Part shown: positions 18,504-64,000 of the stretch, in pieces
How positions within the stretch are numbered: position 1 is the first letter of the stretch
Layout: each line of letters starts with the position of its first letter
Assembly: GCA_024743095.1 (NCBI GenBank)
Contig: JANSXF010000001.1
Coordinates: 62,001-126,000 of the forward strand
DNA: 64,000 nucleotides
Source: Flavobacteriaceae bacterium
GTDB lineage: Bacteria; Bacteroidota; Bacteroidia; Flavobacteriales; Flavobacteriaceae
Direction of reading: 5' to 3'
Translations under genes and position numbers: made by a program
Notes under the pieces: model-generated
Told to the model about the DNA's origin: nothing
The model's input: the letters and a program-made list of their open reading frames with translations, nothing else
The model's database searches: none

Positions 18504-18698
18504 ATGAGTAAAGGAACAGTAAAATTCTTCAATGATTCTAAAGGTTACGGATTTATCACTGAAGATGGTTCAAACACAGATCACTTCGTACACATTTCAG
18601 GTTTAATCGATGAAATTAGAGAAGGTGATGTTGTAGAGTTCGAACTACAACAAGGTAAAAAAGGATTGAACGCCGTCAATGTACAAATTGCGGAATAA
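18504..18698 (+). CDS. Cold-shock protein
   Basis: A 64-residue single CSD protein that binds single-stranded RNA and DNA. It has both RNA-binding motifs: KGYGFIT (RNP1-like) and DHFVHISG (RNP2-like; usual VFVH is DHFVH). The start MSKGTVKFFNDSKGYG is typical of the family. A strong terminator follows, then two tiny membrane-protein genes. Confidence 0.95.
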   Translation: MSKGTVKFFNDSKGYGFITEDGSNTDHFVHISGLIDEIREGDVVEFELQQGKKGLNAVNVQIAE

Positions 18699-18723: not shown

Positions 18724-18753
18724 AGTCTGGGCTGCGGCCCAGACTTTTTTTTT
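18724..18753 (+). terminator. Rho-independent terminator after the cold-shock gene
   Basis: Arms AGTCTGGGC (18724-18732) and GCCCAGACT (18737-18745) enclose a 4-base loop and are followed by a run of nine T. It separates csp from the small genes downstream. Confidence 0.92.
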
Positions 18754-18840
18754 GCTTTTTTTTCTGAATTTACGCAACCATTCCAAAATTTACTATCTAA
18801 CGAATAAACACTGTTCCCCATAACCATAAACCTAATATAA

Positions 18841-18927
18841 ATGAATACCTTTTTCGGAGTACTTTCGTTTTTATTGATTGTTAATGCCTTACTATTGGTA
18901 TGGAGTGTCAATGGCTCAAAAAAGTAA
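18841..18927 (+). CDS. Tiny single-helix membrane protein (28 residues), family copy 1
   Basis: The reading frame ATG 18841 to TAA 18925-18927 encodes a 28-residue peptide that is almost all one hydrophobic helix (FFGVLSFLLIVNALLLVW) ended by SVNGSKK. The pattern helix-Asn-Ala-x2-LL-x2-SVN-G/R-A/S-K recurs in the next gene (19000) and in the gene at 63525, which is why I consider it real. The short polar C-terminus after Val-Asn would face one side of the inner membrane. No known family recognised. It starts about 90 bases after the csp terminator, so it needs its own promoter. Confidence 0.55.
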   Translation: MNTFFGVLSFLLIVNALLLVWSVNGSKK

Positions 18928-18999
18928 CAAAAAAGTCCTTGCGGGCAATAGGTAGGGTTTTTTACCGTTGAACTGTTACCTAATAAACACCTTACGACC

Positions 19000-19083
19000 A
19001 TGACCACTTTTTTAAGCATTCTTGTTGCCCTACTTGCGCTTAACGCCTGTTTATTATTTTTGAGCGTAAACCGGGCCAAATAA
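19000..19083 (+). CDS. Tiny single-helix membrane protein (27 residues), family copy 2
   Basis: ATG 19000 to TAA 19081-19083 encodes 27 residues: an N-terminal MTTFLSIL, a hydrophobic helix with ALLALNACLL and the tail SVNRAK. It aligns without gaps with the 63525 protein over its whole length (MTVFLSIL, LLAINAILL, SVNGAK) and with the 18841 protein. The three share Phe4, the helix Asn near residue 15, and the Ser-Val-Asn end. It lies 72 bases after copy 1. A TAAACAC word occurs upstream of both 18841 and 19000. Function unknown. Confidence 0.55.
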   Translation: MTTFLSILVALLALNACLLFLSVNRAK

Positions 19084-19105
19084 AAAAGCCTTCATTTCTG
19101 AAGGC
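19082..19105 (-). terminator. Rho-independent terminator for the cyclophilin-FKBP gene
   Basis: Arms GCCTTCA (19088-19094) and TGAAGGC (19099-19105) with a 4-base loop; on the minus strand a run of six T follows (A tract 19082-19087). It lies 30 bases after the minus-strand stop at 19135. Confidence 0.75.
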
Positions 19106-19134: not shown

Positions 19135-20067
19135 TTATTTCACGTTCATCAATTCCACATTAAAAATTAATGTTGCATTAGGTGGGATGACACCTCCAGC
19201 CCCAGCGCTTCCATAAGCCAAATGGGAGGGAATTACAAAACGTGCCTTATCTCCGACCTTCAGCAAACTGATACCTTCATCCCAACCGGGAATCACCTGT
19301 CCAATACCCAATGAAAAATCTATAGGTTGCTTTCTTTTATAAGATGAATCGAATACTTGACCATTCGTCAAAGCTCCTTCGTAGTGCACGGATACAGTTT
19401 TGCCCTTTTCTGCTTTGGCACCGCTACCTTTTTGAATAATCTTATAACGAAGCCCACTATCGGTCTTATCAAAACCGGCAGCCAACTTTTCCATCTCGGC
19501 CTCTGCAGCAGCCTTTTGCTCGGCGATACGCTTTTCTCTTGCACCTTCAAATGTGCGGAAAGCCTCAATTGCGTTCCATTTCTGGGCCTCTTCACCCACC
19601 CTAACAATTTCCAAGGTTTCAATCGCATCTCCTTGAGAAATGGCATCCACGACATCCTGACCTCCTTGAACATGGCCGAATACCGTATGCTTATTATCCA
19701 ACCACGGGGTAGCTACGTGAGTGATAAAAAATTGACTCCCATTGGTACCTGGCCCTGCATTGGCCATGGATAGCACTCCAGGTCTATCATGCACCAAATC
19801 TGGATGAAACTCATCATCGAACTTATACCCAGGGTCACCTGTCCCCGTTCCCGACGGACATCCGCCCTGAACCATAAAGTCGGCAATTACCCTATGGAAC
19901 TTTAGTCCATCATAATACGGTTTTCCCTGTGGTTTAACACTGTTCTCCATATTCCCTTCTGCCAGTGCAACAAAATTGCCCACTGTCCCAGGTGTTTTAT
20001 CATGCGTAAGCTTCACCAATATTTCACCTTTGGAAGTATTGAACTTTGCGTAGATTCCGTCTTGCAT
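19135..20067 (-). CDS. Cyclophilin-FKBP fusion peptidyl-prolyl isomerase
   Basis: A 310-residue protein with two unrelated prolyl-isomerase domains. Residues about 1-150 are a bacterial cyclophilin: [36 protein letters not shown], then [20 protein letters not shown] and [11 protein letters not shown], so the Arg, Gln and Phe catalytic positions are present. A charged helical linker (about 160-195, [14 protein letters not shown]) joins it to an FKBP domain (about 196-310) with [45 protein letters not shown] and a C-terminal [13 protein letters not shown]. There is no signal peptide, so it is cytoplasmic. Dual-family isomerases of this kind are reported from Flavobacteriia and apicomplexans; here the order is cyclophilin first. 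Confidence 0.93.
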
Positions 20068-63218: not shown

Positions 63219-63407
63219 ATGTTCACCACAGGACAGGTAATTTTTGCAGCTTTATTCTTTATTGTCTTTGTCGCGATTATCGCTTCATCCTACCGAAAGG
63301 ACAAAAAACTGCACAAAAAGAATTATAAAGGAGTTATTTGGATACTCGCTTCCTTTATAACTTTCATTCTCATTCTGTTCCTTATTAAATACTTCCTTAA
63401 AAATTAA
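63219..63407 (+). CDS. Small two-helix membrane protein
   Basis: A 62-residue protein with two hydrophobic helices (about 7-24 and 42-59) joined by a basic loop (SSYRKDKKLHKKNYKG). The start ATG at 63219 is preceded by AT-rich DNA. No family recognised; it lies close to another small membrane gene at 63525. Confidence 0.6.
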   Translation: MFTTGQVIFAALFFIVFVAIIASSYRKDKKLHKKNYKGVIWILASFITFILILFLIKYFLKN

Positions 63408-63488: not shown

Positions 63489-63496
63489 TACTTTTG
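63489..63496 (+). promoter_or_regulatory. TAnnTTTG promoter element before the 63525 small gene
   Basis: TACTTTTG, identical to the octamer before the genes at 7332 and 34318, lies 28 bases before the ATG at 63525. It could drive the small gene and crcB. Confidence 0.4.
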
Positions 63497-63524: not shown

Positions 63525-63704
63525 ATGACTGTATTTTTAAGTATCCTTTTTGTTTTACTTGCAATTAATGCCATTCTATTGATTTTCAGCGTAAACGGGG
63601 CCAAAGAAAGATTCTCAAAACCGATTCAACGGATTTCAGAAATCTCAACCACCAAAATTTTACCTCGTGAGACTGTTGAAACCGAGTATAAAGAAGCGGT
63701 TTAG
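63525..63704 (+). CDS. Small single-helix membrane protein (59 residues), family copy 3
   Basis: ATG 63525 to TAG 63702-63704 encodes 59 residues. The first 26 (MTVFLSILFVLLAINAILL, then IFSVNGAK) match the two tiny proteins near 19 kb position by position; the last 32 form an extra charged tail (ERFSKPIQRISEISTTKILP). This tail shows the helix is the conserved unit. It lies 16 bases before crcB and may share its transcript. Function unknown. Confidence 0.6.
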   Translation: MTVFLSILFVLLAINAILLIFSVNGAKERFSKPIQRISEISTTKILPRETVETEYKEAV

Positions 63705-63720: not shown

Positions 63721-64000
63721 ATGAAACAAGCTTTACTTGTCTTTTTAGGTGGGGGATTAGGAAGTGTTTTACGCTACCTGATCTCTAAACCGCTCAACCC
63801 TCTTTTCCATAATTTTTTTTTAGGGACATTCTTGGCAAATATTATTGGGTGTTTGTTAATAGGTCTTTTTCTAGGGTTGTCGGCCAAAGGCAATATACTG
63901 AACTACAACAACACCCTATTTCTTGCCACCGGGTTCTGTGGTGGCTTCACTACATTCTCCGCCTTTGCCTTCGAAAAACATTCACTATTAAAAAGTGGCG
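63721..64000 (+). CDS. crcB: Fluoride ion exporter CrcB/Fluc (cut by window edge)
   Basis: CrcB/Fluc exports fluoride as a dimer. About 93 residues are present: FLGGGLGSVLRYLI (helix 1), FFLGTFLANIIGCLLIGLFLG with the pore Asn, and TGFCGGFTTFSAFAFE with the Phe-box Thr/Ser region. The gene runs off the right edge. Start MKQALLVFLGG at ATG 63721. Confidence 0.93.
   Translation, partial: MKQALLVFLGGGLGSVLRYLISKPLNPLFHNFFLGTFLANIIGCLLIGLFLGLSAKGNILNYNNTLFLATGFCGGFTTFSAFAFEKHSLLKSG

Follow-up and report, generated by a model that had tools for sequence, protein, structure and literature searches.

A Flavobacteriaceae family of single-helix membrane miniproteins with a putative link to ECF-type promoters

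In enterobacteria, the one-helix stress proteins MgrB, AcrZ, MgtS, and SafA act on membrane partners, and YohP is reportedly another enterobacterial single-helix small protein under stress. To our knowledge, Bacteroidota carry many ECF sigma factors, the targets of which are mostly unknown. Two ECF systems of this phylum are among the known systems closest to the locus described here. According to the parts of PMC13088901 used here, the Das/Dma system of Bacteroides pairs an ECF21 sigma factor with a dual membrane-spanning anti-sigma factor, and Dma1/Das1 act through nigD1 on vesicles. For F. psychrophilum, the parts of PMC9723704 available to us describe SM6, an ECF-type set that contains an ECF/anti-sigma pair, the rhodanese YceA, Rfp11, and T9SS genes and for which a CGT box is given as the -10 motif. 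Among the papers listed from the open-licence PMC literature, none has a title or abstract start on the peptides or the P1 element presented below.

The window, i.e., the whole 64,000-nucleotide stretch of DNA that was analyzed, had been read from its letters alone as encoding a new family of tiny single-helix membrane proteins. That sequence-only reading placed two frames within 18841-19083 and a longer third frame at 63525, and all three were found there (Table 1). The alignment of ORF1, ORF2, and ORF3 is gapless over the first 27 residues, and 13 of 28 columns hold one residue throughout, F4, N15, S22, V23, N24, and K27 among them. The common pattern that had been proposed, with a helix Asn and a Ser-Val-Asn end, is borne out. 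Judged by this alignment, ORF3 is a paralogue of ORF1 and ORF2. Pfam and NCBIfam searches with the three frames returned no family match, the sole hit (0.011, with ORF2) being far below the cut-off. Genes of 27 and 28 codons are under the size reach of most gene finders. A hairpin-like sequence after ORF2, as in the window, was also seen by eye in most of the relatives' 3' flanks that were inspected; the window's hairpin was not flagged by the strict terminator scan.

Table 1. Positions of the peptide genes, their putative control elements, and their neighbors in the window
Feature	Position	Strand	Evidence or sequence
cspA-like cold-shock gene, separate transcription unit	18504..18698	+	NCBIfam cold-shock families, below curated cut-offs
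Intrinsic terminator between cspA and the peptide genes	18724..18745	+	z -4.4
P1, putative ECF-type promoter element of ORF1, ACGCAACC-N15-ATCTA	18772..18799	+	sequence
ORF1, 28-aa single-helix membrane peptide (predicted)	18841..18927	+	protein MNTFFGVLSFLLIVNALLLVWSVNGSKK
P2, promoter-like element of ORF2, GTAGGGT-N15-TGTTA	18952..18978	+	sequence
ORF2, 27-aa single-helix membrane peptide (predicted)	19000..19083	+	protein MTTFLSILVALLALNACLLFLSVNRAK
Hairpin immediately 3' of ORF2, probable transcript end	19088..19105	+	z -3.2
PPIase gene, convergent, next after ORF2	19135-20067
TACTTTTG, upstream of ORF3, matches housekeeping -7 box TAnnTTTG	63489..63496	+
ORF3, 59-aa paralogue with the same helix and a conserved tail; adjoins crcB	63525..63704	+
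crcB fluoride channel gene, 16 nt past ORF3, leaves the window	63721..64000	+

By hydropathy, each peptide has one hydrophobic helix (peak of 2.4 to 3.0 in a 19-residue window), in keeping with the description of tiny single-helix membrane proteins. The predicted model of ORF3 likewise contains one helix, with a mean pLDDT of 93 to 95 over residues 1 to 20 and a poorly defined tail. Charges in ORF1 and ORF2 are positive only, and all are C-terminal. Because positive charges mark the cytoplasmic side of a membrane protein (the positive-inside rule), we infer that both peptides would be inserted in the membrane with the N terminus out and the C terminus in. We then tabulated residues over a 150-member set (150 of 166 hits, with a minimum of 12 bits; nine duplicate loci were taken out, and frames longer than 130 aa were skipped). 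L11 is present in 149 members, N15 in 150, L18 in 145, S22 in 148, and N24 in 132; since the search and the anchoring partly select for N15 and S22, the counts are descriptive and no proof. Reasoning from their spacing, L8, L11, N15, L18, and S22 would share one helical face with heptad periodicity, much like a leucine zipper that lies in the membrane and contains a polar Asn.

The source genome groups with Allomuricauda/Flagellimonas/Muricauda: 25 of the 28 named loci that match ORF3 bear those names, and the best named match has 90% identity. A search with the 59-aa protein recovered ORF3 in 23 of 23 genomes of the same genus. Pair regions fetched from 23 same-genus genomes contain ORF2 in all 23 and ORF1 in 22; in the remaining genome (G003, locus L035), ORF1 is absent and a degenerate P1-like site is left. 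With the window included, ORF1 is 28 aa long in 22 of 23 sequences and ORF2 is 27 aa long in 22 of 23. Heterozygosity at codon positions 1, 2, and 3 was 0.25, 0.09, and 0.47 for ORF1 and 0.30, 0.11, and 0.50 for ORF2 (23 sequences, window included, L035 omitted), and none of 20,000 column permutations matched the observed excess at position 3. The pN/pS ratio over 22 sequences (L035 and L038 omitted) was 0.19 for ORF1 and 0.22 for ORF2, with synonymous sites near saturation and dS usable in 116 (ORF1) and 94 (ORF2) of 231 pairs. By these measures, ORF1 and ORF2 are under purifying selection. Conservation of frame and sequence in close relatives and selection at synonymous sites (pN/pS of about 0.2) were among the checks that had been suggested, and both came out on the side of genes. 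Chance frames are ruled out by the presence in relatives together with the position 3 excess, and the earlier view that these are made proteins gains support, in that selection argues for their being made.

A three-row profile matched 147 of 199 sampled Flavobacteriaceae genomes at an E value of 1, a loose threshold at which many matches are weak. The genomes G094, G158, and G202 carry a peptide pair and a third member about 15 to 16 kb away. When 295 genomes of the class were searched, 26 matched at an E value of 0.05 or better, and nothing convincing was found among them outside Flavobacteriaceae, where the best match (8.3e-4) was a fragment of 17 positions. In the genomes sampled, the family thus appears limited to Flavobacteriaceae, with no convincing member elsewhere. 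The claim of a new family agrees with this spread across Flavobacteriaceae and with the Pfam and NCBIfam results.

The best pointer to function, which the sequence-only reading had not mentioned, comes from two putative ECF-type promoter elements, P1 ahead of ORF1 and P2 ahead of ORF2. The pattern ACGCAACC-N15/16-ATC[TC] precedes ORF1 in the window and in 21 of 22 ORF1-bearing relatives; the lone exception is L045, where a contig end cuts the region. Across 93 peptide loci (375,026 bases, both strands), which were fetched for the peptide and not for P1, ACGCAAC-N15..17-ATC[TC] has 54 sites, each of which is followed within 70 nt by a family ORF (22 sites belong to the genus and 32 to loci elsewhere). 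The spacing is N15 or N16 in every one of the 54. Outside the genus, P1 and a peptide occur together at the Prx-CspA-PPIase site, at the NTPase-mp62 site (which is the place of ORF3 in the window), and elsewhere. Sorted by strict patterns, the 150 members comprise 54 with P1, 40 with P2, 42 with TAnnTTTG (a loose pattern, a few of whose 42 members are short peptides), and 14 with none; near-matches to P1 were seen by eye for members without the strict form at L063, L070, L080, L120, and L132. A 35-aa branch, most members of which have an acidic tail (FSCND...), lies behind P1 at L078, L081, L084, L085, L112, L113, L121, and L123, at a different genomic place without a match to any window gene.

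P1 recurs at an ECF operon. The genome of the window has two sites of ACGCAACC-N13..17-TCTA, one at ORF1 and one at locus L140, and none of the reversed pattern. The L140 site lies directly ahead of an operon next to recA that encodes a probable lipoprotein of 147 aa, an ECF sigma factor of 176 aa (Sigma70_r2, r4_2), and a protein of 486 aa. Strict P1 (ATCTA) has 32 sites in 15 genus genomes: ORF1 and the ECF operon account for 14 each (every operon site was confirmed by tblastn), and 4 are near recA, versus 2 sites for the reversed-pattern control. The sites near recA belong to G008, G009, G010, and G020, and the three that were viewed, L176 (G009), L193 (G020), and L196 (G010), are all at the 5' side of recA. 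At L176 and L196, the gene for the rhodanese TrhO starts about 200 nt beyond the P1 site, trhO being on the far side. An orthologue of the ECF sigma factor was found in 30 of 30 tested genomes from 25 genera, which were chosen as peptide carriers; P1 stands ahead of the ECF operon in all 30, 29 times in exact form and once with a single change in its -35 box. Homologues of the 486-aa protein come after the sigma gene in all 30 loci. This protein has a charged N terminus (residues 1 to 44, without a Pfam hit), a helix near residues 45 to 63 (best hydropathy window from residue 45, mean of 1.98), a polar tether (16% LIVFMWY over residues 70 to 270), and a C-terminal barrel (PF13568, OMP_b-brl_2, residues 275 to 452, 28.9 bits versus a cut-off of 27), and it looks like an anti-sigma factor of the Dma type, that is, a dual-membrane-spanning sensor. 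From its bipartite form, fixed spacing, and occurrence at the ECF operon, a pattern of autoregulation, we infer that P1 is an ECF-type promoter.

The converse was examined in 13 Flavobacteriaceae genomes without a detected peptide, taken from the unmatched rows of the three-row profile search. P1 is present in 11 of them, with 36 sites versus 5 for the reversed pattern. Thirty of the 36 sites were viewed, and 22 of these lie within 60 nt of the start of a frame of at least 123 aa whose N terminus looks like that of a secreted protein or lipoprotein (by eye). The ECF orthologue is found behind P1 in 9 of the 13 genomes, at one locus each. P1 in these genomes mostly precedes lipoprotein genes, so that the peptide is not the sole kind of target, and these results favor P1 as an envelope-type class of ECF promoters. 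They also speak against an indispensable role of the peptide. The P1 circuit thus seems able to exist without the peptide; it is also possible that these genomes hold a diverged peptide overlooked by the weak three-row profile. Loci L293, L299, and L301 contain, at the 5' side of recA and downstream of P1, 30-aa frames ending in CKxDGG (...SSCKTDGG, ...SGCKLDGG, and ...GNCKADGG), and the helix peptide was undetected in those three genomes. These frames may encode another small peptide of the P1 regulon.

ORF2 has an element of its own, P2. In a looser regex form, it stands ahead of ORF2 in all 23 relatives, and 16 loci from other genera have it before a family peptide. The 93 peptide loci contain 41 P2 sites, 39 of which are followed by a family ORF; one of the other two, at L080, precedes a diverged 29-aa member that is absent from the profile matches. 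As a genome-wide pattern P2 was dropped, since the counts of GTAGGGT-N13..16-TGTTA were like those of the reversed control and showed no excess over it (2 versus 16 reversed in the window's genome). Twelve P2 loci, picked by eye and partly for similar spacers, were viewed: in 5 of the 12, P2 lies 23 nt before the same FecR-family gene (PF04773, PF16344), and in 11 of the 12, a frame of at least 40 aa starts within 60 nt. At L209, P2 lies between a FecI-like sigma gene and fecR, and further P2 sites precede lipoproteins or small secreted proteins. Both L090:1501-1527 (G000:C105:28912) and L211 have a P2-like site 58 to 59 nt before a small secreted protein (MRL...), which looks common to two genus members and is a possible further member of the P2 regulon. 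ORF2 is probably read by an ECF sigma factor of the FecI/FecR type via P2, an assignment that is clearly weaker than that of P1 and that rests on recurrent positions in hand-picked loci. The two elements are also stacked. The lone peptide of L122 has P2 (a regex match) upstream of P1, a looser P2-like sequence is placed likewise by eye at L127, L130, L132, L133, and L134, and L138 has the looser P2 only. Because P2 and P1 precede lone peptides as well as split pairs, two promoter types appear to converge on the peptide family, either divided between the two genes of a pair or placed in series before a single gene.

The TAnnTTTG match upstream of ORF3 fits the consensus given for the housekeeping -7 box in the part of PMC9723704 used here and points to a promoter of the housekeeping type. 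We rejected crcB as a partner of the family: it adjoins ORF3 in many loci and not ORF1 or ORF2, and it is sometimes farther away or undetected. ORF3 and its crcB neighborhood show no obvious tie to the stress circuit. Just before ORF3, a 62-aa membrane protein is encoded on the + strand (63219-63407); it occupies the same spot in many loci of other genera, and its Pfam matches are only below the cut-off. The gene before it is presumably NTP pyrophosphohydrolase-like.

Taken together, these observations make it reasonably likely, in our judgment, that ORF1 and ORF2 are envelope-stress-induced inner-membrane miniproteins, which probably dock helix to helix on a membrane partner. The ECF sigma factor of the recA-linked operon, itself autoregulated, would transcribe ORF1 from P1, and ORF2 would be transcribed from P2 by another ECF sigma factor, probably of the FecI/FecR type, and additionally by readthrough from P1. 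Once inserted N-out/C-in, the peptide would use its heptad face (L8, L11, N15, L18, and S22) to bind a second copy of itself, a paralogue, or the transmembrane helix of a partner. Docking on a protease, a transporter, or the anti-sigma factor's own helix could adjust that partner during envelope stress, in the manner of small proteins like MgrB or AcrZ in enterobacteria. ORF3 would be a longer paralogue under a housekeeping-type promoter. The regulation in this proposal is read from sequence, and the biochemical action is hypothesized. A broader version is possible, and we hold it tentatively: throughout Flavobacteriaceae, the peptide would be a central output of an envelope stress circuit. 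As a one-helix messenger, it would join two independent sigma pathways that sense the outer membrane, one of the Dma type and one of the FecI/FecR type, through a tandem pair in which each gene has one promoter or through a single gene that has both, and it would relay the condition of the outer membrane to an inner-membrane target.

The position of the pair after a cold-shock gene, which had been pointed out and which was confirmed, raises the question of whether cspA and both peptides form one cold-induced unit, and cspA does adjoin the pair in most of the genus and also in several genera outside it. However, a strong terminator (Table 1) lies between them, and ORF1 and ORF2 have promoter elements of their own. 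Furthermore, the peptides are present where CspA was undetected beside the pair (L035, L036, L038, and L055; the pair region of L045 is cut by a contig end), and in other genera the peptide can occupy a different locus. On the terminator and the comparison of loci, we reject a cold-shock operon and assign it next to no probability, and the hint of a cold-shock role is left unsupported, as cspA stops at its own terminator and the peptides are kept without a detected cspA. A sigma-70 consensus scan gave one match, which overlaps the cspA start and is below the shuffle mean of 2.7, and Rfam gave 11 subthreshold matches, none at the gathering score, several of which span the hairpin after cspA. 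Type I toxins can be stress-induced, and the size, hydrophobicity, and tandem arrangement of the peptides would suit toxins in the style of Ldr, Ibs, or TisB, each held down by an antisense RNA. On the other hand, a conserved reverse-strand TAnnTTTG box, the mark of a consensus-type promoter for such an RNA, was not found: 5 of 23 regions have one, at scattered positions, although an antisense promoter of nonconsensus type is possible. The leaders have no structure beyond that of shuffles, and one paralogue has a housekeeping-type promoter, which also speaks against toxins. Because there is no conserved antisense promoter of this type and the peptides are syntenic and under purifying selection, a toxin is distinctly unlikely.

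A different possibility is that the RNA is the active entity, with the frames serving as leader peptides or belonging to a small regulatory RNA. They are short and flanked by conserved noncoding elements, and independent transcripts of such size would pass as sRNAs; the parts of PMC9723704 used here list one comparable case in F. psychrophilum, Rfp11, a short RNA under an ECF-type promoter (Table 2C). Yet the conserved elements are promoter-like and do not resemble RNA structure (z of -0.13 and -1.6, with nothing in Rfam at the gathering score), and the clear selection on amino acids argues against an RNA. A role as leader is improbable, because the gene next to the pair is convergent, both in the window and wherever the PPIase was detected beside the pair, and because the leaders are unstructured beyond shuffles. 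Somewhat less doubtful, and still unlikely, is a specific feedback in which ORF1 binds the helix of the Dma-like anti-sigma factor and ORF2 that of FecR. Strict P1 in the genus is nearly confined to the peptide and the sigma operon, which is the layout expected of a feedback element, and the Dma-like anti-sigma factor has a hydrophobic helix, as the FecR-family protein has a hydrophobic stretch (by eye). Nevertheless, this support is purely positional, 9 of the 13 genomes in which no peptide was detected have the sigma operon behind P1, and ORF3 lacks a link of this kind. Docking on a membrane partner under envelope stress is the reading that we prefer to these four.

Promoter conservation can expose genes that annotation omits: all 54 P1 sites in the fetched loci led to peptides, and a P2 site revealed a diverged member overlooked by the protein profile. 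ORF1 is the one target besides the sigma operon at which P1 recurs in nearly all genus genomes (14 of 15, strict), and it gives a direct entry to testing a whole ECF regulon. An unannotated part of the envelope stress response thus becomes testable through ORF1 and ORF2.

Compared with the systems already described, the P1 operon is like Das/Dma in that an ECF sigma factor is followed by an anti-sigma factor composed of a helix, a polar tether, and a beta-barrel and is accompanied by a small lipoprotein-like gene, but the sections of PMC13088901 used here describe no single-helix peptide. SM6 is similar in that P1, too, is found at an ECF operon and, at other sites, with recA on one side and the rhodanese gene trhO on the other, whereas P1 has ATCT and not the CGT box and SM6 includes T9SS genes; as far as the available parts of PMC9723704 describe it, SM6 may be this circuit as it exists in F. 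psychrophilum. As in FecI/FecR pathways, P2 precedes a FecR-family gene and at one locus (L209) sits between sigma and FecR; in contrast to them, it is also ahead of a 27-aa peptide away from such an operon, a link made by motif position. The peptides share small size and a membrane helix with the enterobacterial MgrB/AcrZ class, with stress induction and action on a partner being proposed here, but they differ from that class in forming a paralogous pair with two sigma elements, and no sequence relation is shown. One-helix stress proteins are a known kind; among the open PMC papers listed, none describes this family, its spread in Flavobacteriaceae, or its putative double sigma wiring.
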